Part shown: positions 8,263 to 35,215 of the stretch, piece by piece
How the letters are laid out: each line of letters starts with the position of its first letter
Position numbering within the stretch: position 1 is the stretch's first letter
Assembly (NCBI GenBank): GCA_020722725.1
Contig: DYKG01000001.1
Location: 151,106-215,105, forward strand
DNA: 64,000 nucleotides
Direction of reading: 5' to 3'
From: Candidatus Methylomirabilis sp.
Lineage (GTDB): Bacteria > Muiribacteriota > Ozemobacteria > Ozemobacterales > Ozemobacteraceae
Program-made: the position numbers and the translations under genes
Notes under the pieces: generated by a model
Seen by the model: the letters and a program-made list of their open reading frames with translations, nothing else
The model's database searches: none
Told to the model about the DNA's origin: nothing

Positions 8263-8301
8263 TACAGGGCTTTTGCCGGATTTTACGGCGATTTCCGGTT
8301 C

Positions 8302-8330: not shown

Positions 8331-8375
8331 CTAAAGGAAATTCTCTAGATTACCGTCTTCAGGAGGCTATTTATA

Positions 8376-18093: not shown

Positions 18094-19548
18094 ATGAATA
18101 AGCTGAGACTGACCTTTGTTCTGGCATTAGTGCTGGTCTTTACGGTTTTTGCCGATAGGGTTCAGGCTAAAGATACTGAATTCGAATTTTATTATCAGAC
18201 CATTGAAAATGTGGTGCAGATCAATAATCCCAAGCCCGAAGGCTGGTGGGAAACGGCTAAAAGCTGGGTTAAGCGTGGCTATACCGAAGTGATGAAGACC
18301 TGGGATATGGCCTTTGGCCGCAAATATTTTACCGGTGAAGGCACCAAACGCTGGTATTCACGTGAAGACCACTGCACTGCCTACGATGTGAAACGGGTCA
18401 AAGTTAAGAGTGAAGCTCACCTGCTCGGCCTGATGGGTGCCGAATCAGAAGCCGAGCTTACGAACGGGCAGAAAGCCATGCTTGCCGTTTATCGCCATTC
18501 TCTTTCGCAGGCTGTTCAAGAAAGGCATCAATACGGTTATTTTTCGAAGGTTAAGGTTATTCTTTCAGACACCAGCGGCTATGAAGATTCGAACAAATAT
18601 CCGCATGTTGAGCGTGATTTCTGGCCATATTCCCAGGGCTCGCTGATTCAGGTTTCTTCGGGCCATTACAACTATGGCGGTTCTGAAGCCGATGCCAAAT
18701 CTACTTTTGTGCATGAATATGCCCATTCTCTTGATCGCACGATTAAAGAATTCATTTACCCCTACGGAAAAGATGGTTCGCATTTCAGTAACGAAATGAC
18801 AAAGCCGCGCTCCGCCTTTGTCGAAGGCTGGGCCGAGTTCAATGAAATGCTCGATTCAGAATATGAAGTGAAATCAATGAAGAATTCGATTACCAAAGTT
18901 CGGCTTGAAAGCGGCACCGAAGCTGGAAAATATACTATTTTGCCTTCCGATTCCCCGAATTTGAGCGGCCAAAATCTGCTGGCAGTAGAAGGCATCAATG
19001 CCATGATTCTTTATCGGCTGGCCAATGAGATTCCTGATGGTCGGCGCAAGATTTTTGAAACATTTCAAAGCACCAACTGGAAAGTTTTTCGCTCGCTGAG
19101 CACCTTTGCCAGGGATTTTGCCCGCCGGTATCCCGAAGATGCCGGTGCTTTGGCAGGAATCATCGATGCAGAAAGCAAATACCGGCTTTCTTCCGCTGAA
19201 TTGACCAAATTTGCTGGTGACAGCAGCGGAATGCGGGATTACCTGGAAAATCGGCCGACTGATGCTGCCGCAGGCGCTGGAGTAGCCGCATCGGCACAGT
19301 CACCGGTTGCGCCGCCTCCCCAGACTTCTTCATTGGCGGAAGCGGCAGTCATGTCAGCCCAGGATTTTGCTGAAGCTTTGAAAAATGCCCACAATTCAAT
19401 GATTCAGGCTCAGCAGGAATATGTTGAAGCGGTAAAAAGCGAGGCCGATGCGGCGACAATTCTTGAGATGCAGAAGAAACTTTCGGAAAAGAAGCAGGTT
19501 TTTGAAAGCCTGCGCCGCTTGCGAAGGGCGGCAAGGCACAGTCGTTAA
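18094..19548 (+). CDS. Secreted zinc metalloprotease-like protein (gluzincin pattern)
   Basis: The 484-residue product has a signal peptide (RLTFVLALVLVFTVFADRVQA). The motif HEYAH at 207-211 (STFVHEYAHSLDR) fits HExxH zinc binding, and a second glutamate about 35 residues later (FVEGWAEFNEM, E244 or E248) fits the third ligand of gluzincins. The C-terminal part is alanine/proline-rich and then a helical, Gln/Glu-rich coiled coil ending in basic residues. The family is not recognised and the substrate is unknown; a periplasmic or secreted peptidase is likely. TATAAT at 18057 could be its -10, but the -35 is poor. The gene converges on the L,D-transpeptidase with a four-base overlap. Confidence 0.7.
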   Translation: MNKLRLTFVLALVLVFTVFADRVQAKDTEFEFYYQTIENVVQINNPKPEGWWETAKSWVKRGYTEVMKTWDMAFGRKYFTGEGTKRWYSREDHCTAYDVKRVKVKSEAHLLGLMGAESEAELTNGQKAMLAVYRHSLSQAVQERHQYGYFSKVKVILSDTSGYEDSNKYPHVERDFWPYSQGSLIQVSSGHYNYGGSEADAKSTFVHEYAHSLDRTIKEFIYPYGKDGSHFSNEMTKPRSAFVEGWAEFNEMLDSEYEVKSMKNSITKVRLESGTEAGKYTILPSDSPNLSGQNLLAVEGINAMILYRLANEIPDGRRKIFETFQSTNWKVFRSLSTFARDFARRYPEDAGALAGIIDAESKYRLSSAELTKFAGDSSGMRDYLENRPTDAAAGAGVAASAQSPVAPPPQTSSLAEAAVMSAQDFAEALKNAHNSMIQAQQEYVEAVKSEADAATILEMQKKLSEKKQVFESLRRLRRAARHSR

Positions 19549-20171
19549 TCGAGGGTTTTTAATTCTTTCAGCAGGTTCTGGTAAAGCTCTTCAGCCCATT
19601 TGGGCAGTCCGGCGATGGTCATTGCCTTTTCGATACCGCTTTTTCTCAGGTCGTAGGGGGCAATGATCACCTTGATTTTGTCGATGCCGGTTTTCGCGGC
19701 AAGCACAAAGAGATCTTCGATGGGCCCATCGCCGATAGCCAGACAGCCGCTCGAAACCTGGTTGCCGTGAATCATGATATTGCTGCCCGGGCTGAAGCGC
19801 CCGTCTGACCTGGCTTTTCGGTGGTCGAACTCATTGGGGTAATTGAGCTTGAGCGCCAGATGATACAGGCTGTTGGGGTTGAGAAAATCGATGAGGTAAA
19901 CCCCCTCGGGCACTTGCCGGTCACCTTCGCGCAGTTTTGGCCCAGGATGACCACTTGCGGCCAGAAGTTGGTAGGTTTTGAGTGTGGCGAATTTGTCGGT
20001 ACGTTTGTCTTTAACGTAAACTTCAAGAATTTTTTCTTCTTTGAACGCGGCTAAAATCATGGCTTCAGGCGGGTACTGAAGATTTTCGAGCGAAAAATAC
20101 TCTTTGAGCCTGGGTTCAACTACAGGTTTAAGCTCGGCCAGCCGTTCTTCAAGCGTTTTTCTTGCGTTCAT
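19545..20171 (-). CDS. L,D-transpeptidase (YkuD domain), YafK-like
   Basis: YkuD enzymes make or edit 3-3 or lipoprotein links in peptidoglycan with an active-site cysteine. The motif IMIHGNQVSSGCLAIGDGPI has the histidine and the catalytic SSGC cysteine. Upstream, PEGVYLIDFLNPNSLYHLALKLNYPN is the usual strand region. I start at the ATG at 20171 (AGGA nearby) because the track start at 20246 lies within the promoter at 20218-20246. The 208-residue product has no obvious signal peptide, so its export needs explanation: either a further start or an atypical route. Similar YafK proteins are about 240 residues and exported. Confidence 0.85.
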   Translation of the reverse strand: MNARKTLEERLAELKPVVEPRLKEYFSLENLQYPPEAMILAAFKEEKILEVYVKDKRTDKFATLKTYQLLAASGHPGPKLREGDRQVPEGVYLIDFLNPNSLYHLALKLNYPNEFDHRKARSDGRFSPGSNIMIHGNQVSSGCLAIGDGPIEDLFVLAAKTGIDKIKVIIAPYDLRKSGIEKAMTIAGLPKWAEELYQNLLKELKTLD

Positions 20172-20217
20172 AACATGATTCCTGTCAAAATATCCATTTG
20201 ATCTAATACGCTGGATT

Positions 20218-20246
20218 ACTCTATATTGCCAAAAGATATACGTCAA
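20218..20246 (-). promoter_or_regulatory. Promoter candidate of the L,D-transpeptidase gene
   Basis: On the minus strand TTGACG (20241-20246) is followed after 17 bp by TAGAGT (20218-20223), about 47 bp before the ATG at 20171. It argues against the longer ORF-track start. Confidence 0.5.
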
Positions 20247-20529: not shown

Positions 20530-20991
20530 ATGCGGATGAAAAAGTTTCCCGAGCAGATGGTTCTTAAATTCAATGACCCCCGGTATTTTTCGATTGTTAA
20601 GAAAAATACGGAGCTTCTTGCGCGGCGCATGGGGTTTAATGAAAACCGTATTTTTGATCTGGCGATGGCGGTCGAAGAAGCTTACGTCAATGCCATTGAA
20701 CATGGCGGAAAAGGCAGCGAGCTGAATCTGAAGGTTGAATTTCTTGTATATCCTGATCGGCTCGAAATTTCCGTTTCAGATACCGGCTGCGGGTTTGATC
20801 TTACACGAATCGAGATTCCTAAAACCCTCAAAAATCTTGAGGGGGTAAGGGGACGCGGCCTTGGCTTGATCAAAAGGCTTTCTGATCGCTTTGTTTTAAG
20901 CTCTGTTCCTGGCAGCGGCACACTGATAAAAATTATTAAATTCGTTTCGTCGCGTCGCGCCAGAAAATCCATGAGTCTGGAAAATATTTGA
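20530..20991 (+). CDS. RsbW-like serine kinase / anti-sigma factor (GHKL ATPase)
   Basis: The 153-residue product is a single GHKL ATP-binding domain. The N-box is LAMAVEEAYVNAIEHGG, the G1-box is VSDTGCGFD and the G2-box is RGRGLGLIKRLSD. Such proteins (RsbW, SpoIIAB and relatives) hold sigma factors or phosphorylate STAS-domain anti-anti-sigma partners. No STAS or sigma gene is adjacent, although the sigma-28 gene lies in the same window. No strong ribosome-binding site is present. The esterase gene that follows overlaps its stop codon (TGATG). Confidence 0.85.
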   Translation: MRMKKFPEQMVLKFNDPRYFSIVKKNTELLARRMGFNENRIFDLAMAVEEAYVNAIEHGGKGSELNLKVEFLVYPDRLEISVSDTGCGFDLTRIEIPKTLKNLEGVRGRGLGLIKRLSDRFVLSSVPGSGTLIKIIKFVSSRRARKSMSLENI

Positions 20992-22020: not shown

Positions 22021-23814
22021 TTAATCGCCGATTTCCATTTTGAGCCGATCCATGCGCTCTTTGACTTTGCCGGTATCGAGATTTTGAAATTTTTCGGGCA
22101 GAAAGCGCTGGTCGGTGCATTCAATAACTGCTGCCAGATCCATGAATTCAAGGCGGGATGAGTGACTCATCGGGCGATAGGTTTTCATGGCTTCGGCAAT
22201 GAAGTGGCCGATCGGTTTAGCGTCGGGCTCATCGCACTGCAGCTCAAACTGGCGCGAAGCCATGATCAAAATTCCTTCCATTTCGTTGCCGCCGATGTCA
22301 AGATTATCGGGAAAAACCGGAATTTCTTCTGTATTGAGCTTAACCTTGTTTTTCTTTGCCAGAGCAATGAAAAGGTCTTTCTTGTCTTCGGCAGTCTGTG
22401 GGGCAAACAGGGGAATATGCACATCAAGACGTCCGACACGTTTGAGATCAACTTCGAGCAGATCAGGCCTTGATGTGGCAAAGATCCAGAAAATGCGGCC
22501 ACGGTTGCGGGTATCTGCCATTTCACGGGCAAGCATCGCATAAATGCGGCCCGAAACCCCTGAATCGCCTGAGCCGGCACCGCGTTTGCCGGCCACCTGG
22601 TCGGCTTCATCGATAAACACGATAACTTGACCCATGGCATGCAGAATCTTGAAAATTGCTTCAAGGTTGCCTTCGGTGGCCCCGACCCATTTGTCGCGGA
22701 AATTTTTGAGTTCAACACAGGGAACTCCGGCCTCGCCGGCAAAACATTCAACCAGATAGGTTTTTCCGGTGCCAATGCGACCGGTAATCAGATACCCCAT
22801 TGGCAGAGCTTTGAGTTTGCCTTTCTTCATCAGCTGGGCATCCTGGCGCAGCCATTGTTTGGCTTCGTGGTGGGCGGCCACATCGTCGAGAGTTCTGGTC
22901 GATTCAACGAAAACAATGCGACCCGATGCTGATTTCTCGATCATCTCTTTTTTTACATCGCGCAGATAATCCATGGTAATGCGCTTTTTGTTCTTAACTG
23001 CCCGTTCAATAAGGTTTTGTACATCGATGCATGAAAGCCCTTCGAGCTTCTGAGCCAGCGATTCTCGCTCGACATCGCAGATTTCGCCAAAGTTCCGAAT
23101 TGAAGCGGTAATTGCCTGAACAAAATTCAACACCTGATCTGAAGTGGGCAGCTCGATTTGAATCTTGGCAGAGCGCGGGTTTTCGACGAGCTGGCGATTC
23201 ATGTCGTTGAGATTTTCAGCGATCAGACAGGTAGAAATGTAGGCATTGGTGATCGAAGGGTCAGAGGCCCAGTCGAGAATGCGAATCAGGGTGTCTACGG
23301 TTTCCGGGCTGGTGTAGGCAATTTCAGATCTGGGCAGCAGATATTCTGCATACTCGACAATGATTGCAATTCTGATCGGGTTGGCAACCATTTTCCCGTC
23401 TTTGTCGCTGCGGGTGCGGTTTAGACCGTATCTGATGAAACGGTCAATAAGTGCAAGTGCTTTTTTGGGCTCTTTGGGCAGCGAATTGGCTTCAATCAGC
23501 GTCTGTTCACCAGAATTTGCCGCTGAAAAGCCGGTTCGGTGAAAGCTGTCGAAAGCCTTGAGAAAATTGAAGAAAATTTCACTGCCTTTGCAGGTTCTGA
23601 TTCCGTGACCGCGGTCGTAGCTGATAACGACTTCGAAAGGGGCAAACATGATATTGGTCAGAAAATCTTTCAATGAAAGGCATTGCAACTGATTGCCGGT
23701 TTCTGATTTGAAACTGACCCAGTCGTTGATGTTGCCGTAGAGAACGAACTGACTGATTGAACCGCTTTTGAAAATTTCGGCCATTTCGCCGGCCCAGCCA
23801 GGATAATTGGTCAT
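22021..23814 (-). CDS. AAA+ ATPase with a degenerate first module (classic AAA clade, p97/Vps4-like)
   Basis: The 597-residue product has an active AAA module in its second half: Walker A GRIGTGKT (345-352), pore region NFRDKWVGATEGNLE, Walker B VIVFIDEAD (397-405), sensor 1 FATSRPD and arginine-finger region LKRVGRLD. These are hallmarks of the classic p97/NSF/Vps4 clade. Residues about 1-300 look like a second, degenerate AAA module: there is no Walker A, but RIAIIVEYAEYLL and a later NAYISTCLIAENL stand where Walker B and sensor 1 would be. The start has AAGGAAG. It is the last gene of the PspA/ABC operon, suggesting that it remodels a partner from that operon. Confidence 0.85.
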   Translation of the reverse strand: MTNYPGWAGEMAEIFKSGSISQFVLYGNINDWVSFKSETGNQLQCLSLKDFLTNIMFAPFEVVISYDRGHGIRTCKGSEIFFNFLKAFDSFHRTGFSAANSGEQTLIEANSLPKEPKKALALIDRFIRYGLNRTRSDKDGKMVANPIRIAIIVEYAEYLLPRSEIAYTSPETVDTLIRILDWASDPSITNAYISTCLIAENLNDMNRQLVENPRSAKIQIELPTSDQVLNFVQAITASIRNFGEICDVERESLAQKLEGLSCIDVQNLIERAVKNKKRITMDYLRDVKKEMIEKSASGRIVFVESTRTLDDVAAHHEAKQWLRQDAQLMKKGKLKALPMGYLITGRIGTGKTYLVECFAGEAGVPCVELKNFRDKWVGATEGNLEAIFKILHAMGQVIVFIDEADQVAGKRGAGSGDSGVSGRIYAMLAREMADTRNRGRIFWIFATSRPDLLEVDLKRVGRLDVHIPLFAPQTAEDKKDLFIALAKKNKVKLNTEEIPVFPDNLDIGGNEMEGILIMASRQFELQCDEPDAKPIGHFIAEAMKTYRPMSHSSRLEFMDLAAVIECTDQRFLPEKFQNLDTGKVKERMDRLKMEIGD

Positions 23815-23826
23815 GATCTGCTTCCT

Positions 23827-24720
23827 TTATTCCATTTCGCGAGGGGGTGGAGGGGGTATAAATGTTTCTTCAACAGCAGGCTCAAGGTCATCGATGGGGG
23901 GGCCACTGAGTTTGCGTAGAAAATCAGAATGAGAATTGAGCCAGTCCTGGGTTTCGCCCAGGGTGATATTGATGCGGTCGATATTGGAAGACAAGCCTTC
24001 CGGGCTGCTGTCGAGAGCAATTTCTTCGCGAACCAGAAGCATCTGGCTTTCGATGCGCTGCAGCTCCATTTCGACCAGCATTTCGTTTTCTCTGGCATTG
24101 GCAAGATTTTCGAGACGTTTGCGCTGAATCTCGATATTGCTTTTCAGCGACTTTTCAAGAGCTGCGCCAATGTTGGGGGTTTTCAGCTGGTTTTCAAGCT
24201 TTCGCAGTTCTTTGTTTATTTCTTCTGGTTTGGTTCGGGCCAGGCTTTCTTGAATCAACTGCTTGGTTTTGAGCAGTTTGAGGAAAATGGTTGGCAGGTG
24301 ATTGAGAGTTTCCTGTTTGCTCTGATTGAGAAAGCCTGCCGATTCATCAAGGTTCCAGTTCATCAGCCTGTTGATTTCAGAAAGATTGCTGTTGAGCTTG
24401 TTAAGGCGGTTCTGAAGCTCCTGGTCAAGGGATGAAACCATTTCATGCATTTTGCTGCTGCGGTCTTTCTGGATGTTTTCGTATTGCTTCGATTCTACGT
24501 AATTCTGAAATCCTGGATTGGTGGAAAGGTAATAAAGATAGATGATTTCAAGGGCGAGACCCATGAACCAGAAGCCGGGGTTGCCGAAGCCGAGAATGAA
24601 TGTGCCAAGAATGAAAAGCTTATTAACCGGAATTTCACCCATGCCTTTTATGTTTAGCCCGGCGTTGAAAGCCTCGGTCAAATAATCAGAAAATCCGGGT
24701 TTATATTTTTTGTTGATCAT
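23827..24720 (-). CDS. Membrane protein with long coiled coil and proline-rich tail
   Basis: I do not recognise a named family. The 297-residue product has a hydrophobic region at about 33-68 containing a twice-occurring NPGF motif (GFGNPGFWFMGLALE, then STNPGFQNYVE), then a predicted coiled coil from about 75 to 240. It ends in an acidic segment and a proline run (FIPPPPP). I use the ATG at 24720; a TTG two codons upstream overlaps the ATPase stop. Membrane-plus-coiled-coil proteins of this type sit beside PspA and AAA genes, and this one could be the adaptor through which the AAA ATPase contacts the membrane complex; that role is inferred. Confidence 0.7.
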   Translation of the reverse strand: MINKKYKPGFSDYLTEAFNAGLNIKGMGEIPVNKLFILGTFILGFGNPGFWFMGLALEIIYLYYLSTNPGFQNYVESKQYENIQKDRSSKMHEMVSSLDQELQNRLNKLNSNLSEINRLMNWNLDESAGFLNQSKQETLNHLPTIFLKLLKTKQLIQESLARTKPEEINKELRKLENQLKTPNIGAALEKSLKSNIEIQRKRLENLANARENEMLVEMELQRIESQMLLVREEIALDSSPEGLSSNIDRINITLGETQDWLNSHSDFLRKLSGPPIDDLEPAVEETFIPPPPPREME

Positions 24721-24722
24721 TT

Positions 24723-25859
24723 TCAATTTATGTCACCAATTTTAATAAATTCGTCGGTAATTTCTTTCAATGCCGCTTTGAAAGGCTGGCTTTCCTGGAC
24801 TTCGAGGGGGGAATGGCCGGGAATTTTGCCGATTGCTTCAGGAGGAATGAAAATCTGTTTGTTCAACCGACCAGGTGAAGGAGTGAACATGAAAATACGG
24901 TCGCTGAGATAAAGTGCTTCAGCCAGGGAGTGGGTAATGATGAAAACTGTTGCTTCTACTTCATGCCACAGATCGGTGATCAATTGCTGCATTTCGATGC
25001 GGGTCGGCTCGTCGAGGGCAGAAAACGGTTCATCCATGAAGATGATGCGGGGCTTGAGAACCAGGGTTCTGGCGATGGCCACCCGCTGCTGCTGACCGCC
25101 CGATAACTGATAGGGGTATTTGTCTTCGTGCCCGTTAAGCCCGACTTTTTTGATCATTTCCATTGCCAGATGGTTCATGGTTTTGTCTGAAAAACCAAGT
25201 TCTTCACGGTTGAGCTCGAGACCGAATTTAACGTTATCGAGCACGGTCAGGTGCGGAAAAGAACTGTATTTCTGGAAAATCATGCCGCGATCCCGCCCAG
25301 GGCCTTTGACTGGCTTATTTCTAACCAGTATTTCGCCATGGGTGGGCGGACCCACTTCCTGAAAAGCCTGAATCAGATTGAGCACGGTTGATTTGCCGCA
25401 GCCGGATGGGCCAACCAGGGCAATGAACTCGCCAACATCGGGTAGATCTTCGATTTCAAAAGAAACATTTTCGATGGCCACGAATTCGTTTTCGGTGCCT
25501 TTATTGAAGATTTTTGTGACGTTCTTGAAAGAAACGATTGGCTGGTATCTGCGTTTCTCGGCAATTGGCGGTGCATGAATCAGGCCGCAGGGGCTGGTGA
25601 AAGACTGTTCAAGCTTTCTTGACTCAGCTTTAAGTTCGTTTTTGGCGGTTATCGAAATTGAGGGTTTGGCTTCTGAGGAAAGCCGACTTTGGTTTTTCTC
25701 ACCCGTTTCAGGGAATGGAAACGCAGCCTGTTTTGCCGCTGGCTTTGCAATAGCAATCGCTGCCGGCTTTTTTCCAGGCTCTTCATTCCTGGTTTCAAAT
25801 TTTATAAAAAGACCGATAAAGCTTTTCAGCCAGCCGGGAATTTTATCGAACATGCTCAT
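24723..25859 (-). CDS. ABC transporter ATP-binding protein, NitT/TauT type, with PspA-like N-terminal helix
   Basis: The 378-residue protein has a standard ABC domain from about residue 105: Walker A GPSGCGKS (150-157), Q-loop IFQKYSSFPHL, signature LSGGQQQRVAIART, Walker B IIFMDEP and switch histidine ITHS. Closest relatives by pattern are the TauB/SsuB/NrtD ATPases. The first 105 residues are extra: an amphipathic helix FDKIPGWLKSFIGLFIK, then a Pro/Ala/Lys-rich linker. That helix resembles the start of the PspA protein of the same operon (RGFFGLFIK). The ATG overlaps the permease stop by four bases (ATGA). Confidence 0.9.
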   Translation of the reverse strand: MSMFDKIPGWLKSFIGLFIKFETRNEEPGKKPAAIAIAKPAAKQAAFPFPETGEKNQSRLSSEAKPSISITAKNELKAESRKLEQSFTSPCGLIHAPPIAEKRRYQPIVSFKNVTKIFNKGTENEFVAIENVSFEIEDLPDVGEFIALVGPSGCGKSTVLNLIQAFQEVGPPTHGEILVRNKPVKGPGRDRGMIFQKYSSFPHLTVLDNVKFGLELNREELGFSDKTMNHLAMEMIKKVGLNGHEDKYPYQLSGGQQQRVAIARTLVLKPRIIFMDEPFSALDEPTRIEMQQLITDLWHEVEATVFIITHSLAEALYLSDRIFMFTPSPGRLNKQIFIPPEAIGKIPGHSPLEVQESQPFKAALKEITDEFIKIGDIN

Positions 25860-27064
25860 CGTTTCTGGCTCCGGTATGGGAACAGGCGGTCGCCGATCTT
25901 TTCCCAGATTTTGTCGGTGATGAATGCCATGATGACGATGGCCATGAGAACCAGGTAAATGTCTTCGCGCGGGCCTCTTCTCTGACTGGTTAGAATGAGG
26001 GTGCCGACTCCCTTGCTGCCCATGTCAACCATTTCTGCGAGAATTATATAGCCCCAGCCGATGCCGAAGCCAAGCCGCATGGCATCAAAAATTTTGGGCA
26101 ATGCAATGGGCAAAAGAATGTTGTTGAGAATTTGAAACTTTCTTGCCCCAAGAGTAAGGCCGGTCTGCAGATACACGTTGTCTACTTCTTCCAGTGCTTT
26201 GACGAAAAGGGGCAGCAGATAAATGGCAAAACCAAGAGCAAGAAACATTATTTTCTGTTGTTCAGTGGTTCCGAACAGAACCATGGTGAGGGGCACCAGC
26301 GCAGGAATTGGCAGGTATCCGCCAAACATCATCAGTGGTGCAAAAAGAGCATGAAATTTTGAATAGGTGCCCATCAGCAGTGAAACTGGAAAAACTATGA
26401 TGAAAGCAACGAAAAAGCCCGCACCTACTCTGAGAAAACTAAACAGAATATTGGTAAGCAGACTTCTTTCGACCCACAATGAGGGAAGAGAGCGAAAAAC
26501 TTCAGATGGACCAGGAAGAATAACCTGGGAAATCAGGCGCGACTCGACAACTTCAAATTTGTAGGTGATGGTTCCGCCAAAGCTTGCCGAGGGTTTGGGC
26601 TGGTCAACGTTGGTAATGTCAACAGCGCCGCTGGAGTTTTCTACGGTTGCTGAGCCGCTTGCTGTTTCATCTTTTGCAGATTCGGGAAGGTTGCGGCCGA
26701 CGATTTTGCCAGGTGGTAGAGTGATTCTTACCGAATTGCCCGATACCCTGGCGGGTAACATGCCCAGATTCAGTCGGTTTTTGCCCTTGATCAAAACGGT
26801 GCTGGAATCATCTGAATAATCAAGGGTGGCCTGATCTATCGTGTAGCGAATCTTTTCACTAAAAAAGTGCCCAACCGGTGGTGGATTGCTTTCGAAACCC
26901 TCGAACCGGCCTTCGGGAAACTCGATGGTGGTCGAATGTCCTGAGGTGACGAAAGACCAGATGGATAGCAGCATAAAAATAGGCAAAACTCCGAGAATTA
27001 TTTTTTCCCGGGCGTTAACCTCTATGCGAATTCCAAATAAATTTTTAAACAGGCTATTGATCAT
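25856..27064 (-). CDS. ABC transporter permease, NitT/TauT type, with large periplasmic insertion
   Basis: The ORF track starts at 27145 inside the upstream gene; I use the ATG at 27064, giving 402 residues. A first transmembrane helix (about 22-40) is followed by a roughly 140-residue beta-rich segment (about 43-180) not found in TauC/SsuC permeases, which are about 250 residues long. The BPD_transp_1 core occupies about 195-400, with the cytoplasmic EAA-type loop LTLGARKFQILNNILLPIALP. The extra segment should be periplasmic and could dock the OmpA-fused binding proteins. A strong hairpin separates this gene from the upstream binding protein gene. Confidence 0.88.
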   Translation of the reverse strand: MINSLFKNLFGIRIEVNAREKIILGVLPIFMLLSIWSFVTSGHSTTIEFPEGRFEGFESNPPPVGHFFSEKIRYTIDQATLDYSDDSSTVLIKGKNRLNLGMLPARVSGNSVRITLPPGKIVGRNLPESAKDETASGSATVENSSGAVDITNVDQPKPSASFGGTITYKFEVVESRLISQVILPGPSEVFRSLPSLWVERSLLTNILFSFLRVGAGFFVAFIIVFPVSLLMGTYSKFHALFAPLMMFGGYLPIPALVPLTMVLFGTTEQQKIMFLALGFAIYLLPLFVKALEEVDNVYLQTGLTLGARKFQILNNILLPIALPKIFDAMRLGFGIGWGYIILAEMVDMGSKGVGTLILTSQRRGPREDIYLVLMAIVIMAFITDKIWEKIGDRLFPYRSQKR

Positions 27065-27071
27065 TTTTAAA

Positions 27072-27098
27072 CCATGCCCCGGATCAACCGGGGCATGG
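27072..27098 (-). promoter_or_regulatory. Strong intercistronic hairpin between binding protein and permease genes
   Basis: CCATGCCCCGG and CCGGGGCATGG form a perfect 11-bp stem around a five-base loop. It lies between the stop at 27108 and the permease ATG at 27064. The downstream sequence on the minus strand (TTTAAAAATG) is a poor U-tract, so it probably acts as an mRNA stabiliser or partial terminator that favours the binding protein over the permease. Confidence 0.7.
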
Positions 27099-27107
27099 GG
27101 TGATAGT

Positions 27108-28754
27108 TCAGTTGCTTTCTGGTGGATAAACCGAGATTTCAACACGGCGGTTAAGTGCCTGGTTCATCGGGTTATCCGGGTCAGCGGGTTTATCCCAGCC
27201 TGCTCCTTCAACTACAAATTTTTTCGAATCAAACTTGTAGTTGTCGATCAGGGCGCGTTTAACTGCTTCGGCGCGGGCATTACTCAGATCTTTCACGATC
27301 TTTTCAGGGATTTTGCCTTTCATTGAGCTGTCAGTGTGGCCGGTAATTGCAACTACTGCCCGGTCATAAGCTCCGACCAGTCTGGCGACTTTTTCAAGCG
27401 TGGCAGCCACGTTGGGGTCATAAAGAGTATTAGCCATCGGCACGCCGGCAAGGTCATGGGCCGGTTCGTAGATGTTTGCAGAATTGGGGTAGAAATTGAT
27501 ACGAACCGTCTGGGTAATGATCGGTGCCTCAGCAACAACCTTCTTGTAGGTAGTTGGTACGAACTTGCTTACGTAATTGTCTTTGTGATGTTTGAAAGTT
27601 CCGGCTTTTTCAAGAGCCTGAATCATGCTGAAATCCATGATCTGGTTGAAATTTACCGGTTCTTTGATCAGGCCGGCCTGCTGGTAAATGAAGTTGATGT
27701 TCTTCCAGGTTCTTTCAAAGTTGGTAGGGTTGTTGGCATTGGTGAAGAATTCTTTGTTTTCAGCGAAGTTGGTTGAATGGGCGTCAGCCTCCATGGCGGT
27801 AACGTCTTCGACCTTCATGCCATAGCCATCAGCCATCCATTGAAAGGCTTTGGCCTTGAACGTTTTGTCTTCAAGAAGATCCATGCCTTCTAAAATTCCG
27901 GCAATCAGCCCTTTAACGATTTCCGGTTTGTCGCGGGCGAAGTCGGCGCGAACGGCCCAGACGTCGGCAATCAGCTTGTTGGCCTCGGCGGTCGTGGTAA
28001 GAATTCTGGTTCCGGCAACTTTTTCGGGAATCGTGTAAATATCGGGAGCCCAGCTTACGCAGGCGTCAATGGCGGGATCTGAAACAAATGCGGCGGCGGC
28101 TTCAAAAGCGGTTGAAGTATATTTGTGGGTAACTTCATTGAGGCCGATGCCGGCGTTGATCAGCAGATTGCTGATGAAATACTGGGAAGGGCTGTTCTGA
28201 GCATAAACGATGGTTTTACCCTTGAGGTCTGATACCGATCTGATCCTGGTGCGGCAAACAATACCATCACCGCCGCTTGACCAGTCTATCTGCTGAAAAA
28301 CGCGGGGTGCGGTGCGACTGTCAGCCATCAGACCGGGAGCGAACAGGGCGATCATATCGAGAGTGCCCCAGAGAACATGGCTGTTGCCGGATGCGTATGC
28401 ATCGCGGGCGGCGACCGGGTCATCGATCAGCTGAAGATTAACTTTGAAACCATACTTTTTGAAAAACACACTTTCTTCACTGGGTGCAAAGCCGTGGTTG
28501 GCAGCAATGATCGGCAGCCAGCCTGCCCAGACGTTGATTGGGAAAACCACGATTTTTTCTTTGTCATCCCATTTGTAGTTTGAGGTGCCGGTTACCGGTG
28601 GCAGCGTTTCGCGAGGTACGAACTTATACTCGCTGACAGTGGTTACCGAATTGGTGTCTGGTGCTTCAACCGAAGTTTTTTCCTGGGCTGAAACGGAAAT
28701 TGTGCTGGATATTAAAAATGAGATTAAAACAAAAATTTTAAACAAAATTTTCAT
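27108..28754 (-). CDS. ABC substrate-binding protein fused to an OmpA peptidoglycan-binding domain (soluble paralog)
   Basis: The product has about 548 residues from the ATG at 28754 (the track uses a TTG two codons upstream). A signal peptide (LFKIFVLISFLISSTISVSAQ) leads into a NitT/TauT-type binding fold over about 60-400, with VVFPINVWAGWLPIIAANHG, NSHVLWGTLDMIALF and KGKTIVYAQNSPSQY. From about 415 follows an OmpA C-terminal domain with ITGHTDSSMKG, DLSNARAEAVK and NRRVEISVYP, which in the family binds diaminopimelate in peptidoglycan. A fused binding protein and cell-wall anchor is uncommon. It lies between pspA and the permease gene and is closely similar to the gene at 29538. Confidence 0.9.
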   Translation of the reverse strand: MKILFKIFVLISFLISSTISVSAQEKTSVEAPDTNSVTTVSEYKFVPRETLPPVTGTSNYKWDDKEKIVVFPINVWAGWLPIIAANHGFAPSEESVFFKKYGFKVNLQLIDDPVAARDAYASGNSHVLWGTLDMIALFAPGLMADSRTAPRVFQQIDWSSGGDGIVCRTRIRSVSDLKGKTIVYAQNSPSQYFISNLLINAGIGLNEVTHKYTSTAFEAAAAFVSDPAIDACVSWAPDIYTIPEKVAGTRILTTTAEANKLIADVWAVRADFARDKPEIVKGLIAGILEGMDLLEDKTFKAKAFQWMADGYGMKVEDVTAMEADAHSTNFAENKEFFTNANNPTNFERTWKNINFIYQQAGLIKEPVNFNQIMDFSMIQALEKAGTFKHHKDNYVSKFVPTTYKKVVAEAPIITQTVRINFYPNSANIYEPAHDLAGVPMANTLYDPNVAATLEKVARLVGAYDRAVVAITGHTDSSMKGKIPEKIVKDLSNARAEAVKRALIDNYKFDSKKFVVEGAGWDKPADPDNPMNQALNRRVEISVYPPESN

Positions 28755-28770
28755 GATCAATTATCTCCGG

Positions 28771-29523
28771 TTAATTTTTTTCCATGGGGCCCATGCCGCG
28801 CTGTGGGGGGGCAATCGGCTCGATATCTTCCGGGGTTACGGTAGTATCCATGCCGCTCATTGACATGAATTCAGCCAGAGCTGCGTCGCCCAGGGCTTCC
28901 TGCTCCCCTTCTTTCATTTCGATTTCAGTGGTGTCGTAAGTTCCTTTGACAACCCTGACTTTTCCTGCCGCTTTGTCGCGTCTTTCATGAAGAATCTCGG
29001 TAACCCGGTTCATAGTGTCGCCACTGGCACCGATACCACTAATCATGCCCTTTGCCATTTCCTGAAGTTCGGCCTGGGCTTCGAGCATTTCAGCTTCACT
29101 GACAAGTGACTGCAGCTTTTCGATTTTGGCCTGCGCTTCTCTGATTGAAACATCGCGGGATCTTTCAAGATCTTTGAAGGTTTTGTCGGCGAGTTCAAGC
29201 TGCTGCTGATTTTCTTCAAGCTGGGCTTTTACGGTCTGCAACTGCAACGCCAGCTGGCCCGCGACCTTTTTGTTGCCGGCCTTGATGTTGGCGGTAATTT
29301 TGGCAGTAAGTTCTTTTTCTTTTGCCGAAAGGGTTTTGACCTGCCGCATCAAGCGTTCGGTGAACGCGGCATGGTTGGCCAGATTCTCGTTGAATCGTGA
29401 AATCTGGTTGCGCAGGTTTTCTTTTTCCGCTTCAATAAGTGCTTCGGGGTTGCTTGATTCAAGGCCTTTGATAAAAAGACCGAAGAATCCACGAATAAGA
29501 TTCATTAACCGCTTGAACATCAT
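28771..29523 (-). CDS. pspA: PspA/IM30 (Vipp1) family protein
   Basis: PspA/Vipp1 proteins bind stressed membranes, polymerise, and belong to the ESCRT-III superfamily. The 250-residue product has the amphipathic N-terminal helix (FKRLMNLIRGFFGLFIK), the NPEALIEAEKENLRNQI turn and a long coiled coil to about residue 190. The C-terminal tail is acidic and methionine-rich. Two ATGs in tandem (29523 and 29520) follow AAGGAG; the second has the better spacing. There is no pspF-type regulator nearby. It is sandwiched between the two SBP-OmpA genes, 11 bases from one and 14 from the other, so it is an integral part of this operon. Confidence 0.9.
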   Translation of the reverse strand: MMFKRLMNLIRGFFGLFIKGLESSNPEALIEAEKENLRNQISRFNENLANHAAFTERLMRQVKTLSAKEKELTAKITANIKAGNKKVAGQLALQLQTVKAQLEENQQQLELADKTFKDLERSRDVSIREAQAKIEKLQSLVSEAEMLEAQAELQEMAKGMISGIGASGDTMNRVTEILHERRDKAAGKVRVVKGTYDTTEIEMKEGEQEALGDAALAEFMSMSGMDTTVTPEDIEPIAPPQRGMGPMEKN

Positions 29524-29537
29524 CTATCTCCTTAAGT

Positions 29538-31295
29538 TTACTTTTCCGGGGTAAATACCTGAATCTCAACCCTGCGGTTGAGTGAGTGATTTAACGGATC
29601 TGACGGATCTGCCGGTTCATCCCAGCCTTTGCCGGTAACCACGAATTTGTTGCGGGGAAACTGGTATTTGCGCACCAGGGCGGAACGAACTGAGTTGGCG
29701 CGGTCGGCAGAGAGGTCTTTTACCGCTTTCTCGGGCACCTTTCCCTTCATCGAGCTGTCGGTGTGACCGACAATGGCAACGGTTGCCCTTTCATACTGGC
29801 CGACCATGCGGGCAATTTTTTCAAGAGTGGCGTCGACCGTTGGGTCGTAAAGGCTGTTCTGAATAGCCTGACCGAATTCGTCATGTTCAGGTTCGTAAAT
29901 ATTGTCGGAATTGGGGTAAAAATTGATGCGAACCGTTTGAGTAAGAACCGGGGCTTCAGCCGAAACTTTTTTGTAGCTGGTAGAAACAAAGCGGTTGACC
30001 TGCACTTCCTGCTGATCGGCAAACATGTTCCTGGCGGCAAAATTCTTGATTACTGAGAAATCGACCACTTCGTCGAAGCGCACCGGGGTTCCGATAATTC
30101 CAAGTTCGCGATAAACGTGAATGATGTTTTTCCAGGTGCGTTCAAAGTTGGTCGGGCTGTTCTTATTCAGGAAAAAATTCTTGTTTTCGGCGAAATTGGT
30201 AATGTACGCATCAGCCTCCATTGACTTGATGTCTTCAAGCTTCATGCCGTAGCCTTCGGCCATATGTTCAAATGCTTTGGTTTTTCTGGTCTGATCTTTG
30301 AGCATGCCCATGCCTTCGAAAATGCCGGCGACCAGCCCTTCGATTATTTCCGGGTGGTCTTTGGCAAAATCGGCGCGGGCAGCCCAGACATCGGCAATCA
30401 GTCGGTTTGCATCGGCGGTGGTAGTCAGAATTCTGGTTCCGGCAATTTTTTCAGGAATTGTATAAATGTCTGGAGCCCAGCTGACGCAGGCGTTAATACT
30501 GTTGTCTGACACAAAAGCTGCTGCTGCTTCAAATGCAGTTGAGGTATATTTGTGGTTTACCTTGTTCAAAGGTATGCCGGCATTCATGAGCAGGTTGGTA
30601 ATCAGATACTGAGATGGGCTGTTCTGGGCATAAACAATGGTTTTGCCTTCAAGATCTTTAATCGATCTGATATTGCCGCGAACTACGATGCCGTCACCAC
30701 CACTCGACCAGTCAATCTGTTGAAAAACGCGGGGAGCCGTGCGGCTGTCTTTCATCAGACTCGGAGAGAAAAGGGCTATCATGTCGAGGGTGCCCCAGAG
30801 AATGTGCGATTCTCCAGATACAAAAGTGTCACGGGCGGTGACCGGGTCATCAATAAGTTTTAAATTTACCTTGAATCCGTATTTTTTGAAGAAAACGCTT
30901 TCTTCACTCGGAGAAAAGCCATTGTTGGCGGCAATAATCGGCAGCCAGCCAAACCAGACGTTAATCGGAAAAACCACGATTTTTTCTTTTTCATCCCACT
31001 TGTAACCCGACACGCCGGAAACAGGCGGCAGTGCTTCTTTTGGCACATAGGAATATTCCTGGACAGTGGTAACGCCTTTTGTGTCAGGGGCTTCAACGGT
31101 AGTTTTCTGGGTAACTGTGGCGTTTGCCGGAAGGGGATCGACAGACTTGGTTTGAATCTGGGTGGCAGGGTCGGTGGGGAAAAATTTGCTTTTCAGCTCC
31201 GGCGAAAAAGAAATGGCAGCTGCTGCAATACAGCCTGCTACAAAAAGGAACATGATAAATTTGCCTAGAGGTGTTGGGCCTAACTCGTTGCTCAC
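29538..31295 (-). CDS. ABC substrate-binding protein fused to an OmpA domain (membrane-anchored paralog)
   Basis: The track starts at 31319, but the GTG at 31295 has AGGAGG five bases upstream and gives 585 residues. Instead of a cleavable signal it has a transmembrane segment (LGKFIMFLFVAGCIAAAAISF) and a Thr/Pro-rich linker. The binding-protein fold (about 90-445) follows, then the OmpA domain (IVGHTDSSMKG, DLSADRANSVR, NRRVEIQVF). It is closely similar to the protein at 27108 across both domains. The anchor at one end and peptidoglycan binding at the other would span the periplasm between inner membrane and wall. It is the first gene of the seven-gene operon. Confidence 0.9.
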   Translation of the reverse strand: MSNELGPTPLGKFIMFLFVAGCIAAAAISFSPELKSKFFPTDPATQIQTKSVDPLPANATVTQKTTVEAPDTKGVTTVQEYSYVPKEALPPVSGVSGYKWDEKEKIVVFPINVWFGWLPIIAANNGFSPSEESVFFKKYGFKVNLKLIDDPVTARDTFVSGESHILWGTLDMIALFSPSLMKDSRTAPRVFQQIDWSSGGDGIVVRGNIRSIKDLEGKTIVYAQNSPSQYLITNLLMNAGIPLNKVNHKYTSTAFEAAAAFVSDNSINACVSWAPDIYTIPEKIAGTRILTTTADANRLIADVWAARADFAKDHPEIIEGLVAGIFEGMGMLKDQTRKTKAFEHMAEGYGMKLEDIKSMEADAYITNFAENKNFFLNKNSPTNFERTWKNIIHVYRELGIIGTPVRFDEVVDFSVIKNFAARNMFADQQEVQVNRFVSTSYKKVSAEAPVLTQTVRINFYPNSDNIYEPEHDEFGQAIQNSLYDPTVDATLEKIARMVGQYERATVAIVGHTDSSMKGKVPEKAVKDLSADRANSVRSALVRKYQFPRNKFVVTGKGWDEPADPSDPLNHSLNRRVEIQVFTPEK

Positions 31296-31358
31296 TTCGT
31301 CCTCCTGAATGGTGTTCACTGGTGCGACAATAGCTTTAACCGCATATTCTCTGAATTA

Positions 31359-31436: not shown

Positions 31437-32003
31437 ATGAAAAGATTCCTGCTTCTCATCTTTATGCTTGGTCAGGCTTTATCGCCTGGTTTTGCCAAAA
31501 CCGGCCCAACTCTTCTGATTGATAAAAGGGCTGATCAGAACATGTTTATTTACGGAATCGGACCTTCGGTGAAATATAAACGGGTTTCTGCTCCCCATGA
31601 TTTTGGGGGCGATATGGCGATCTGGGGTGCGAGAATGTTTGCGGGAAAAATGAGAGATCCTGCTTTGGGGCTGGTTTATCAGGCAGGAACACTTAATGGT
31701 AACAGCATGAAATTCAATCTTGAGATGGGCGGATTCACCCTTGAAGATTCGTTTCGAGAAGATTCACGGGTCAAATGGCGGGCTAGCTTTGGCGCGGGGA
31801 CTTACAAACTGAGAACTCTCTCTTCTGGCCTGGTTTTGAACAAGGGTTCATTCACCTTTTTCGAACCGATGGTGGTAGGGGTATTGCCGCTTTCACGGCA
31901 CATCGTACTTGAATTTTCGACCGGATACACTTTTGCAGCCGGAAATGGGGTGCGAATCGAAGGTCTTGCTCTACAGTGGGAACTGCTTTTCGGAAAACTC
32001 TAA
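31437..32003 (+). CDS. Secreted beta-rich protein, possibly a small outer-membrane barrel
   Basis: The 188-residue product has a signal peptide (RFLLLIFMLGQALSPGFA). The remainder alternates polar and hydrophobic residues in strands (for example FNLEMGGFTLEDSF, WRASFGAGTYKLRTL and VLEFSTGYTFAAG). The chain ends RIEGLALQWELLFGKL, with a terminal aromatic/leucine-rich strand as in small outer-membrane beta-barrels. No family is recognised. It is divergent from the SBP-OmpA operon and converges on the TPR gene with a four-base overlap of stops. Confidence 0.6.
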   Translation: MKRFLLLIFMLGQALSPGFAKTGPTLLIDKRADQNMFIYGIGPSVKYKRVSAPHDFGGDMAIWGARMFAGKMRDPALGLVYQAGTLNGNSMKFNLEMGGFTLEDSFREDSRVKWRASFGAGTYKLRTLSSGLVLNKGSFTFFEPMVVGVLPLSRHIVLEFSTGYTFAAGNGVRIEGLALQWELLFGKL

Positions 32004-35000
32004 TTCTTTTTCCTGCTGTAGATTTTATCTGAACGGTCGAAGGCGTCGCGGAAGTTGATGTCAACATTACATATCATGTCATACATTCGCAAAGCTTCGT
32101 CAAACTTTTTCAAACCTTCAAGGGCGATACCGGTTCGATAAATCACATCTTTTATCGGCTCATTCATCAGCTCAGGATCAATGTCGAGGGTGTCAACGAT
32201 TTCCATTGCCATTACCGGTTCTTTAGTCTCAAGCAGGGCGTTTGCCAGCATCAGGCCAGTTTCGGTACTGCGTTCAGAGGCATAGATCGGGCTGAGAACG
32301 TCTACGACTTCTTTCCATTTTTTGCGGTTGAAAAGATCACGGGCTTTTGAAAGATCGGCAAAATTGCCGCTTTCGGCTTTTTGTGGCATTGCTTCTTTTG
32401 CGGGAAAACTTTCTTCAAAACCGGAGGCACCAAGCGCAGCAATTTTATCATTGGCAGGTCCGCCCAATTCTTCGGGGAGATCAGTGGCAAATTCATCGAG
32501 CAGAGAGTCTGATTCGTTGAATGGATCCAGTTCAGGCAATTCACCTGGATCCAGGGCCAAGTCGGCAACTTGAGTCGATTGTGTCTTTTTGCCCTTTTCT
32601 TTTCCCGTAGTTGGTTTTAGAAAATCAGGCAGTGGCACGTTGGCTTCGTCAAGCTCAAATCCCTCTGGTGGGGGTTCGATAAACCCTTCAATATTTATTT
32701 CTTCGGGGTTCATTCCTGGCATAGGCAGATCAGGTGCCTGCAGTTCGTCGATCATAAGGTCGTCATCGAGGTCTGCCAGGGTATTTTCGGTAGCCGGCAG
32801 CGGTGACATGGTTGCCGCATCTTTTTTAAGGCCGGAAAGAATTTCTGCCAGCTGAGCGTTTCCGGGTGCCCTTTGCATGAAAGTTTCATACTGCCTGATC
32901 GCTTCTGGCAACATATCAAGCTTTTTCATTGAAGAGCTGTAAACTACATGAATTCCCATGTTGTTGAGGTTTTCTTCGAGAACCCTTAGACATTCTCGCG
33001 CGGCATCTGAATAGCGACCTGATTTTGCATAGTTGCGGGCAAGAAGTTCGCGAAATTCTGTTCGGTCTTCGTATTTCAGCGCATCTTCAAGAATTGTTAT
33101 AACATCGTTGCCCATGCTGCGATTCTGGATGTAGCCTTCGGCAAGGGCAATTGCTATCTGTGGCTCGTCGGGGCCGGTCTGGAAATAGGTAAACAGTATG
33201 CCCATCGCTTCTACTGTATAATTTTTGGTTTTAGCATAATGTCGCGCAAGAATTGGAAGATATTCTGATTTTTCGGGGTTTTCACGATAAATGGTCTCAT
33301 ACATCGAAATGGCTTCGGTTGAACTGTCATTGCAGGCGATTGAAGCTTTAGCCAGGTAGTCCCAGGCAATATTATTGCCGGGAAATTTTTCAAGAATTTC
33401 TCTGGCGAAATCCTGGCATTTTACGAAATTTCGCATTTCAAAATGTGATTTAACAAGAATTTCCAGCATTTCACGTTCGACTTGAACCGGCTGTTTTTTG
33501 GCCAAAGCCTTTTCTGCCATGGCTGTAGCTTTTTGATAATTGGCTTTTTCAAACGATCGTTTGGCAACATTTTCTGCTTTCATGAAAGCCAGAGTAATGG
33601 CGGGCAGCAGTCGCAGCAGAAAGACTGTAAAAAACAGAACTGCAGCTATTCCAAGACCGATGTGAACCCACAATTTGTTGAGATTATACCAGATCCCGTA
33701 TTTCAACTGGTCGAAATCGGACTGATTTCTGGCAAAATCAAGCTCGTTTGCTTCAAATTGTTTAAAAATTTCATTTGCCTCGTCATAGCGCTCGAGTTCG
33801 AAAAGGATTTCAAGCTTTGTCCATTCTATGTCGCGGCGGAACAGCGGGTCGAGGTTTTTGTCCCGCAGCACAATTTCGAGGTGTTTGAGTGCCGTTTCTC
33901 TCTCTGGTTCAGGTTTTAGCAGGTAAATTTTGCCTATATAGAAAGGTGCTTCTTTAAATCGTTCCGGTTCCTGTTCATAGGCTTCCTGGAGCGTCGGCAG
34001 TGCTTCTTCGTATTTTTCCCGCTCAAAAAGATTGCGTGCTTCTTTATATCTCTTGAAAAGGTCGAATTTTGCATCAAGTTTTTGTTTCAATTCATCTTTG
34101 CCGGTTACCCCAGGATAAAGCTCGATAGCCTTTTCCAGGTTCAGTTTGGCATCTTCGTAACTTTTCCCTTCAAATTTGCTGTTGGCCTGTTTGATCCAGA
34201 ATTCTGCCTTCCTGATCGATTCTGCTTCCAGATCAGCCTGGGGTTTAACCGGTTCTTCCGGTTTGTCTGGTTCGTCTATCGGCACCGGCCGGTCAATTGA
34301 GCCATCGCCATCAGGATTATCGGGCAGATCAGGTAAATCGGGTATTTCATCAGGATTCGGCATTTCGTCGGGTAGTGGATCGTCACTGGTTGGCTGATTT
34401 TCATTGGGGTTTACCCTGGCATTGGTTATGTCATCAGGCAGGTCAGCAACTTCAACCGTATCGGACGGAAGATTAACTGTCTCGGGAGGCTTGGTGGGAT
34501 CATTTTCAAAAGGACTTTCGGGAACTTCAACAATGTTTGCGTCGCCGGCAATCGGGTTTGCTCTTTTGATAAAGTTGGTGTTTTTGACAATTTTTTTTGC
34601 GGTTGCCAGCCCATAATTATTGCAGGAATAGAGGAACTGAAAATCGGCAAAAACCACGGGAGAGTCTGGCATTGCTTCAAGAACATTGCCCATCTGTTCA
34701 AAGGCTTGATTGTAATTTGCTTTCTTGAAAAGAATTTTGGCAAAAACATAATTTGCAATAGGTCCTGAACGGTTCTCTATCGCGGTTGAAGCAAACCTGG
34801 ATGCTTCGTCGAGTTTCCCTTTGTGAAAGTTGATGTCGGCAAGAATAGTAAAAATAGCCGGATCATCAGGATTGATTCGCGCCTGTTTCTTCAATCTTTC
34901 TTCAGTTCGGTCAAGCAGATCAGCTTTGAGCTTGTCGAGTTTCGGGTCAAATTCATCGCGGGACAGTTCGGCGCGAAGAATTTCCATATAGGCTTCGCCA

Positions 35001-35215
35001 TACATTCTGGCTGACAGAAATTTGCGAAGAGTCAAATAATCCTGATTAGTGGCTGCGTTAACGACAGCTGAAGCCAGGATAAGAAAAATGATTGCAGCAT
35101 TTAAAATGTGTTTTTTAAAACTTGACAGAGATTCATTCCCTTTCAGCTCATACTCTGACCGCAATGCTGGCAATAATATTCTTCGGGATTGTTCGGTTTC
35201 TGGCAACGGGGACAT
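32000..35215 (-). CDS. Large membrane TPR protein, last gene of the pilus-associated run
   Basis: The frame encodes up to 1071 residues with TPR-like helix pairs in both halves, an acidic Pro/Asp-rich linker (about 215-340), and one transmembrane helix at about 540-560 (HIGLGIAAVLFFTVFLLRLLPA). The ATG at 35215 would overlap the upstream gene by 73 bases and bury a signal peptide 30 residues inside. A CTG at 35128, eight bases after AAAGGGA, would give SSFKKHILNAAIIFLILA as a normal signal peptide, so a non-standard start is possible. With the signal, the N-terminal TPRs would be periplasmic and the C-terminal ones cytoplasmic. The function is unknown; context suggests a pilus or envelope scaffold. 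Confidence 0.8.
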   Translation of the reverse strand: MSPLPETEQSRRILLPALRSEYELKGNESLSSFKKHILNAAIIFLILASAVVNAATNQDYLTLRKFLSARMYGEAYMEILRAELSRDEFDPKLDKLKADLLDRTEERLKKQARINPDDPAIFTILADINFHKGKLDEASRFASTAIENRSGPIANYVFAKILFKKANYNQAFEQMGNVLEAMPDSPVVFADFQFLYSCNNYGLATAKKIVKNTNFIKRANPIAGDANIVEVPESPFENDPTKPPETVNLPSDTVEVADLPDDITNARVNPNENQPTSDDPLPDEMPNPDEIPDLPDLPDNPDGDGSIDRPVPIDEPDKPEEPVKPQADLEAESIRKAEFWIKQANSKFEGKSYEDAKLNLEKAIELYPGVTGKDELKQKLDAKFDLFKRYKEARNLFEREKYEEALPTLQEAYEQEPERFKEAPFYIGKIYLLKPEPERETALKHLEIVLRDKNLDPLFRRDIEWTKLEILFELERYDEANEIFKQFEANELDFARNQSDFDQLKYGIWYNLNKLWVHIGLGIAAVLFFTVFLLRLLPAITLAFMKAENVAKRSFEKANYQKATAMAEKALAKKQPVQVEREMLEILVKSHFEMRNFVKCQDFAREILEKFPGNNIAWDYLAKASIACNDSSTEAISMYETIYRENPEKSEYLPILARHYAKTKNYTVEAMGILFTYFQTGPDEPQIAIALAEGYIQNRSMGNDVITILEDALKYEDRTEFRELLARNYAKSGRYSDAARECLRVLEENLNNMGIHVVYSSSMKKLDMLPEAIRQYETFMQRAPGNAQLAEILSGLKKDAATMSPLPATENTLADLDDDLMIDELQAPDLPMPGMNPEEINIEGFIEPPPEGFELDEANVPLPDFLKPTTGKEKGKKTQSTQVADLALDPGELPELDPFNESDSLLDEFATDLPEELGGPANDKIAALGASGFEESFPAKEAMPQKAESGNFADLSKARDLFNRKKWKEVVDVLSPIYASERSTETGLMLANALLETKEPVMAMEIVDTLDIDPELMNEPIKDVIYRTGIALEGLKKFDEALRMYDMICNVDINFRDAFDRSDKIYSRKKN

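Follow-up and report, generated by a model that had tools for sequence, protein, structure and literature searches.

A PspA operon with a tandem AAA ATPase and a wall-tethered importer, and a PspA tail motif that follows the ATPase

For the bacterial relatives of ESCRT-III, Liu et al. 2021 (PMC8281802) call it unclear whether PspF takes the part of Vps4 or whether a comparable ATPase exists for Vipp1, and a structural study of PspA from 2024 suggests only chaperones or PspF (PMC11746142). In one paragraph, Ravi et al. 2024 (mSystems 9:e00847-23, PMC11237479) described a gene set of PspA, a two-domain AAA ATPase with an inactive N-terminal copy, an ABC ATPase, a permease and a PBPB-OmpA protein (example OGG56892.1), proposed that membranes are remodelled in an ESCRT-like, ATP-dependent way in connection with solute transport, and mentioned Snf7 homologues with a transmembrane (TM) segment. 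The stretch of DNA analysed here, called the window (64,000 nucleotides, G000:C61:151106-215105, from a host genome of 3.6 Mb), contains a seven-gene operon which has all of PspA, an AAA ATPase with an inactive N-terminal domain, an ABC ATPase, a permease and a solute-binding protein (SBP) fused to OmpA. Thus, the operon as a gene set has already been reported, and an earlier sequence-only reading of this DNA, which knew of no PspA system with SBP-OmpA fusions and such an importer, was mistaken on this point. The main-text passages of Ravi et al. contain no PspA tail signature (their supplementary tables lay outside the comparison), nor do they give the core gene order, the distribution of the reduced forms, the SBP anchor or the structure of the coiled-coil protein, and the passages found in Popp et al. 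2022 (PMC9239133) do not report the neighbourhood. Relative to the reported gene set, two elements are new here, namely a short motif at the tail of PspA, which tracks the presence of the AAA ATPase, and the membrane anchor of the SBP with its conserved cytosolic tail T-x-L-G-K. With modest confidence we favour the reading that the operon encodes a cell-envelope module, in which the tandem AAA ATPase would be the dedicated remodelling motor of PspA polymers and which would be tied to a wall-tethered importer.

The genes in the order of transcription, and the two sites discussed below, are as follows (window coordinates).

29538..31319, minus strand: SBP1-OmpA, with a cytosolic N-tail, an uncleaved TM anchor, an NMT1/SsuA-TauA-type domain and a C-terminal OmpA domain (Pfam, NCBIfam, hydropathy)
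28771..29523, minus strand: pspA, 250 amino acids, ESCRT-III superfamily (PF04012 match)
28786..28800, minus strand: codons of the PspA C-terminal motif R242-G-M-G-P246, a candidate AAA-recruiting motif, in the tail PQRGMGPMEKN
27108..28754, minus strand: SBP2-OmpA, with domains as in SBP1 and a signal peptide in place of the TM anchor
25856..27064, minus strand: ABC permease (BPD_transp_1, TauC/NtrB-like), with an N-terminal TM segment and an insert of about 150 residues on the periplasmic side
24723..25859, minus strand: ABC ATPase (TauB/NtrCD-like), with intact Walker A, Walker B and signature and an N-terminal extension of about 100 residues
23827..24726, minus strand: coiled-coil protein (CC), without a Pfam family, with a hydrophobic helical hairpin (residues ~34-69) followed by long, predicted cytosolic helices
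22021..23814, minus strand: tandem AAA ATPase, 597 amino acids, with a degenerate N-terminal AAA domain (residues 1 to ~300) and an intact C-terminal AAA domain
22759..22782, minus strand: Walker A GRIGTGKT (residues 345-352) of the active AAA domain, which also holds FIDEAD, KWVG and R459/R462

The PspA tail motif and the presence of the AAA ATPase

The PspA of the window, the sole PspA match in the host genome, belongs to the PspA family by its match to the PspA_IM30 profile (PF04012; 33.7 bits, E 3.6e-8, cut-off 33.9), and its close relatives exceed the cut-off. Behind a linker that is variable in length and sequence and often rich in Pro, Ala and Glu, the PspAs of this clade carry the motif [K/R]-x(1-2)-[L/M/I]-G-P (for example KELGP, KDMGP, KEIGP, RGMGP and KTIGP), mostly 1-13 residues from the C-terminus. 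It is common to relatives as divergent as 25-28% identity and is duplicated in L142 and L147. Counting only the last 30 residues, 54 of the 62 high-scoring PspAs of the clade have it, against 4 among 1183 unrelated proteins; among the proteins of the same operons it is found in one of 82 AAA proteins and in none of 214 CC, ABC, permease and SBP proteins. The eight PspAs lacking it under the strict rule include several frame-shifted or masked reads, some that read RGMGN or LDLGP, and one from an AAA-less genome. The sequence of the motif differs from those of the MIM motifs. The PspAs of L283, L286 and L287 (Planctomycetota) and of L203/L233 (Acidobacteriota) have a conserved tail of another kind, (E/D)RQ(K/R)I or similar; genomes with tails of this type carry another AAA subfamily, and the PspAs of L033 and L034 have both tail types.

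The motif tracks the ATPase. On a PspA tree of 78 rows, from which the tail columns were excluded and a subfamily ending in QKTM was left out, the motif (relaxed at the P position) is carried by 66 of the 67 PspAs whose genomes encode the AAA and by none of the nine from AAA-less genomes, and Fisher's test of the motif against AAA presence gives 7e-11 with relatedness ignored. The AAA state changes three times on this tree and the motif goes along in all three cases. In a first tree, with the QKTM subfamily kept and the strict motif, the motif followed the AAA in most, not all, of the pairings and never went the opposite way. The PspA-CC dyads of seven AAA-less Acidobacteriota genomes (G123, G082, G140, G114, G071, G309 and G336, AAA absence meaning no AAA at 1e-25) have no motif, and it is retained in their close relatives G132, G093 and G104, which have an AAA (E <= 1e-108) elsewhere in the genome. 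It is also retained in G007 and G014, although the AAA is unlinked there. G010 (Riflebacteria) and G247 (Planctomycetota) have a clade PspA and lack both the clade AAA and the motif, and in G045 and G047, with two PspAs each, the motif is found only in the AAA-adjacent copy. G106 and G072 were considered as counter-examples and set aside, their AAA being of another subfamily beside a beta-propeller protein.

The association between tail and AAA, together with the pore-loop residues of the ATPase, supports binding and threading of PspA by the AAA, and from these sequence patterns we infer a direct contact between the two. In the favoured reading, PspA would form membrane-bound polymers, and its disordered C-terminal tail would recruit the AAA through the motif. 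The AAA would then thread PspA through its pore, leading to disassembly or turnover of the polymer, and would be the functional counterpart of Vps4, recognising its substrate in a way of its own. The CC may anchor or nucleate PspA at the inner membrane. SBP-OmpA and the NitT/TauT-type importer, for a putative solute, would give the input in this presumed direction of signalling, either as solute availability or as envelope (inner-membrane-to-wall) spacing. The membrane repair and the sensor or pump suggested in the sequence-only reading are likewise functions that the locus may have.

The tandem AAA ATPase as a candidate motor

The fold of the AAA protein was predicted with AlphaFold2 from 46 homologues (pLDDT 87), and with Foldseek the full chain (~600 columns) aligns to the tandem AAA proteins Rix7 and Cdc48/p97 with E about 1e-21. 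A PDB profile search gave two matched stretches, with a VCP-like ATPase as the best match (2.5e-58), and the score against the CDC48 family TIGR01243 is 83 bits, which does not reach the cut-off of 803. The N-terminal domain (D1, residues 1-300) has no Walker A or B and has a conserved G-N-x-x-D, and the C-terminal domain (D2) has GRIGTGKT, the Walker B FIDEAD, the pore loop KWVG and R459/R462, of which the pore loop and the arginine fingers are near-invariant. Judged by sequence and predicted fold, the protein is thus a p97/Cdc48/Rix7-like tandem motor with a dead D1. With its Walker motifs, pore loop and arginine fingers, D2 invites comparison with the single active AAA module of Vps4, but another AAA domain precedes it, and Pfam detects no MIT domain in the protein, the N-terminal region of which folds instead as the degenerate AAA domain. 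The tandem architecture and the lack of a detected MIT domain rule out a Vps4 orthologue, and hence of the p97/Vps4-like assignment in the sequence-only reading the classic clade and the p97 likeness stand and the Vps4 part does not.

Compared with the ESCRT-III/Vps4 systems of eukaryotes and archaea (CdvB/CdvC in the latter), the operon likewise places a protein of the superfamily next to an AAA of the classic clade whose pore loop is of the threading type, and here too a short C-terminal motif on the presumed polymer protein tracks the AAA. The difference lies in the ATPase, which is tandem with a dead D1, has no detected MIT domain and is closest to p97/Cdc48/Rix7. It could nevertheless work like Vps4 without being one.

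Compared with the canonical Psp systems (PspFABC of E. coli, LiaIH, ClgR-PspAMN), the operon shares PspA with a membrane partner and, as in E. coli with PspF, an AAA protein. This raises the question of whether the AAA is controlled by PspA instead of acting on it. PspA would then be an adaptor or negative regulator and keep the ATPase sequestered until the membrane comes under stress, as E. coli PspA does with the AAA activator PspF. For that pair, stable binding of a lower-order PspA oligomer to the hexameric PspF is reported (PMC3128695). The conserved tail motif would be equally suited to such docking. However, PspF is an NtrC-type activator, whereas the AAA here has no match to a DNA-binding domain in Pfam/NCBIfam and is not a transcription factor, and its pore loop KWVG is of the threading type, so we regard this regulatory arrangement as quite improbable. 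No PspC was found in the host genome at E 1e-3, and no PspF-like gene among the seven operon genes, the rest of the genome not having been searched for PspF.

Relatives of this ATPase are found in other settings as well. In L248 (8173-11403) and L249 (8547-11689), an AAA subfamily of this superfamily lies beside a PQQ/BamB-like beta-propeller protein (the propeller was tested in L248), with no PspA nearby. Homologues on megaplasmids of Paenibacillus, Brevibacillus and Aneurinibacillus (L259-L262) lie in phage- or plasmid-like contexts (DUF262, nrnB, ArdA) with no annotated PspA; these Paenibacillaceae plasmid proteins, ~29% identical and without PspA among their neighbours, were not counted with the system.

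Conservation of the gene set and the part of the importer

A genome-wide scan with an alignment of the AAA gave 79 homologous loci, which are labelled as Riflebacteria, Acidobacteriota, Planctomycetota, Krumholzibacteriota, Eisenbacteria and Aminicenantes, and further to Fischerbacteria, Edwardsbacteria, Gemmatimonadetes, CSSED10-310 and unplaced 'Deltaproteobacteria'. In the window, the AAA is 89% identical to that of a metagenome-assembled genome (MAG) of Candidatus Ozemobacter (Riflebacteria), its closest named relative. At 30 of the 79 loci, the core PspA-SBP-permease-ABC-CC-AAA is complete and collinear on one strand, alone or with at most one extra SBP: 20 have the core itself, which is the commonest arrangement, eight Riflebacteria loci have an additional SBP-OmpA at the front like the window (SBP1-OmpA being this copy, typical of Riflebacteria), one has a doubled SBP, and in L152 the AAA is cut by the contig end. 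The order permease-ABC-CC-AAA-PspA-SBP occurs at five loci, CC-AAA-PspA-SBP without detected ABC genes at another five, and bare PspA-AAA dyads without ABC or CC at nine, in rumen Riflebacteria and other lineages; Acidobacteriota moreover have CC-PspA dyads without the AAA. Since PspA-AAA dyads lack the other partners, PspA and AAA are a core pair, PspA and CC are another, and these reduced and rearranged loci show that the system is modular. Among 37 Riflebacteria genomes, PspA and the full-length AAA clade occur together in 20, neither occurs in 13 and one alone in 4, two of which are MAGs 64-67% complete (Fisher p = 2.6e-6, uncorrected for relatedness). The set is therefore conserved beyond the window genome, with the same order across phyla, and the possibility left by the sequence-only reading, that AAA and CC genes occur mostly without pspA, is not what we found, AAA and clade PspA being nearly always together. 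In one Riflebacteria genus (G007/G350 and G014/G351; L030, L031, L174, L175) the AAA gene and the operon are on different contigs.

The same neighbourhoods bear on what the AAA acts upon. Its main client might be the transporter or CC, in the assembly or extraction of the ABC complex, with PspA merely standing by to stabilise the membrane when transport strains it and its tail serving another purpose. CC and AAA are indeed the genes most often found side by side (56 of 79 loci), and L132 has permease-ABC-CC-AAA with no pspA within 10 kb on either side, though the same genome has one elsewhere (L321). However, the nine PspA-AAA dyads have neither ABC nor CC, the PspA-CC dyads without AAA mean that CC can do without it, the tail motif follows the presence of the AAA and not that of CC, and in eight of ten genomes in which the AAA contig lacks pspA a clade PspA is found elsewhere. 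We consider this alternative unlikely.

Several observations weigh against the favoured reading of the AAA as a PspA motor. Distant AAA relatives in L171-L173 adjoin ABC genes with no recognisable PspA, which also speaks for a transporter client; AAA-containing loci without ABC genes occur; and the need for the transporter is unexplained. The AAA contrasts on the tree amount to three independent ones only (sign test p = 0.25). As to the motif itself, the PspA of L322 lacks it although its genome G349 has the AAA, that of L138 has D at the K/R position, L098 and its kin read RGMGN, one divergent PspA subfamily ends in QKTM/QKTL (L207, L225, L247, L316) and another in RQ-K/R-I (L283, L286, L287), and G260 has the motif and no detected AAA, its operon running off the contig. 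In the three distant loci (L171:865-2646, L172:1-1564 and L173:2972-4744, from other Riflebacteria families) the AAA lies directly with ABC ATPase, permease and SBP genes; the AAA of L171 and L173 are 22-23% identical to that of the window, and in L173 an unclassified protein of 274 amino acids (7726-8550) adjoins an OmpA-less SBP at the expected position of pspA.

Pfam places NMT1 and OmpA on both SBPs, BPD_transp_1 on the permease, ABC_tran on the ABC ATPase and AAA on the tandem protein, and the SBP domain is of the SsuA/TauA/urea type (NCBIfam, and similarity in PDB to SsuA/TauA). An NMT1-type SBP, a BPD permease and an ABC ATPase together make up the gene content of a NitT/TauT importer, and the TauT-type importer proposed earlier is borne out as one of the TauBC/NtrB type. 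Aligned to A. baumannii Omp38 (3td3), the OmpA domain has Asp and Arg at HTD and LS..RA, a pattern found in 77 of 78 SBP-OmpA family members. We take these two residues to be those contacting diaminopimelate, in agreement with the peptidoglycan anchoring proposed earlier. In most SBP-OmpA copies the N-terminal TM helix is uncleaved and follows the conserved cytosolic T-x-L-G-K, which is found in 43 of 66 SBP-OmpA proteins and in 8 of 2480 other open reading frames (ORFs); in SBP1 the N-tail reads GPTPLGK and the anchor spans residues ~20-42 by hydropathy. With the tail, the uncleaved helix and the OmpA domain, the usual SBP-OmpA is thus predicted to be a single protein reaching from the cytosol to the peptidoglycan. 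The gene pair of Riflebacteria apparently has divided labour, SBP1 being anchored and SBP2 having a signal peptide.

The SBP, permease and ATPase families are those of the importers TauABC, SsuABC and NrtABCD, and the best-scoring families of the three proteins are taurine, sulfonate, nitrate and urea importers, as would be expected if the locus were an ordinary NitT/TauT-family importer operon with chance stress genes and no mechanical coupling. Yet none of these families reaches its NCBIfam cut-off, gene order and tight spacing are conserved across phyla, modules without ABC genes recur (the five CC-AAA-PspA-SBP loci), the permease has a periplasmic insert, and an OmpA-fused, usually inner-membrane-anchored and wall-bound SBP is unlike that of a normal importer. 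An ordinary importer operon is accordingly very improbable in our judgement.

The CC is predicted by AlphaFold2 (pLDDT 89) as a hydrophobic helical hairpin (residues 34-69) with long helices. It matches no family in Pfam, Snf7 included, and no fold significantly (best Foldseek E 0.13). With its hairpin and long helices it may or may not correspond to the Snf7 homologues with a TM segment mentioned by Ravi et al. (PMC11237479); it shows no detectable similarity to the PspA profile or to Snf7 and the ESCRT-III fold, and a paralogue of ESCRT-III/PspA is unsupported (hhalign probability of 0.6% against PspA). A match to PspM (Rv2743c) came up for 2 of 57 members at E 0.0095 and was absent on recheck of ten members, so that this assignment was rejected. 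A tail motif of CC is not claimed, the pattern being weak and its terminal residues often arising from the ATGA overlap with the AAA gene.

Genes around the operon and biological meaning

The seven genes, identified by ORF calls and Pfam, occupy 22021-31319 on the minus strand, and the intergenic distances in the order of transcription are 14, 16, 43, -4, -4 and 12 bases, with the permease starting at ATG 27064; an alternative start at GTG 27145 would lead to an overlap with SBP2. The co-directional genes with gaps of at most 43 bases agree with the one-unit operon of the sequence-only reading, and since the nearest genes on both sides are opposite in orientation, a single transcription unit is likely; scans of the operon for promoters and terminators gave no signal exceeding shuffles. 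Downstream of the operon are a gene for an L,D-transpeptidase (YkuD; 19545-20246, minus) and, adjoining it, an RsbW-like HATPase_c_2 gene (20530-20991, plus). On the other side, a secreted-looking protein of 188 amino acids without a Pfam match (31437-32003, plus) is divergent from the operon, with a putative promoter region in common, and further upstream lies a tandem pair of large TPR-like membrane-anchored proteins of 1071 and 855 amino acids (32000-37710, minus), assigned by eye.

The operon offers a candidate for the Vps4-like motor of bacterial ESCRT-III relatives, which is an open question, and the tail motif is a small and specific handle, a five-residue peptide with its point mutants, that makes this question testable in vitro. 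The tracking of the AAA by the motif points to a possible way in which bacteria may dismantle PspA, by analogy with the dismantling of ESCRT-III by Vps4 in our own cells. It seems to us an evenly balanced matter whether bacteria of several phyla possess a functional counterpart of ESCRT-III/Vps4, in which a tail-recruited, p97-derived motor independent of Vps4 is often wired to a protein that is both tether and binding protein of an importer. If this is true, remodelling by a polymer plus an AAA ATPase would have arisen with different AAA families.

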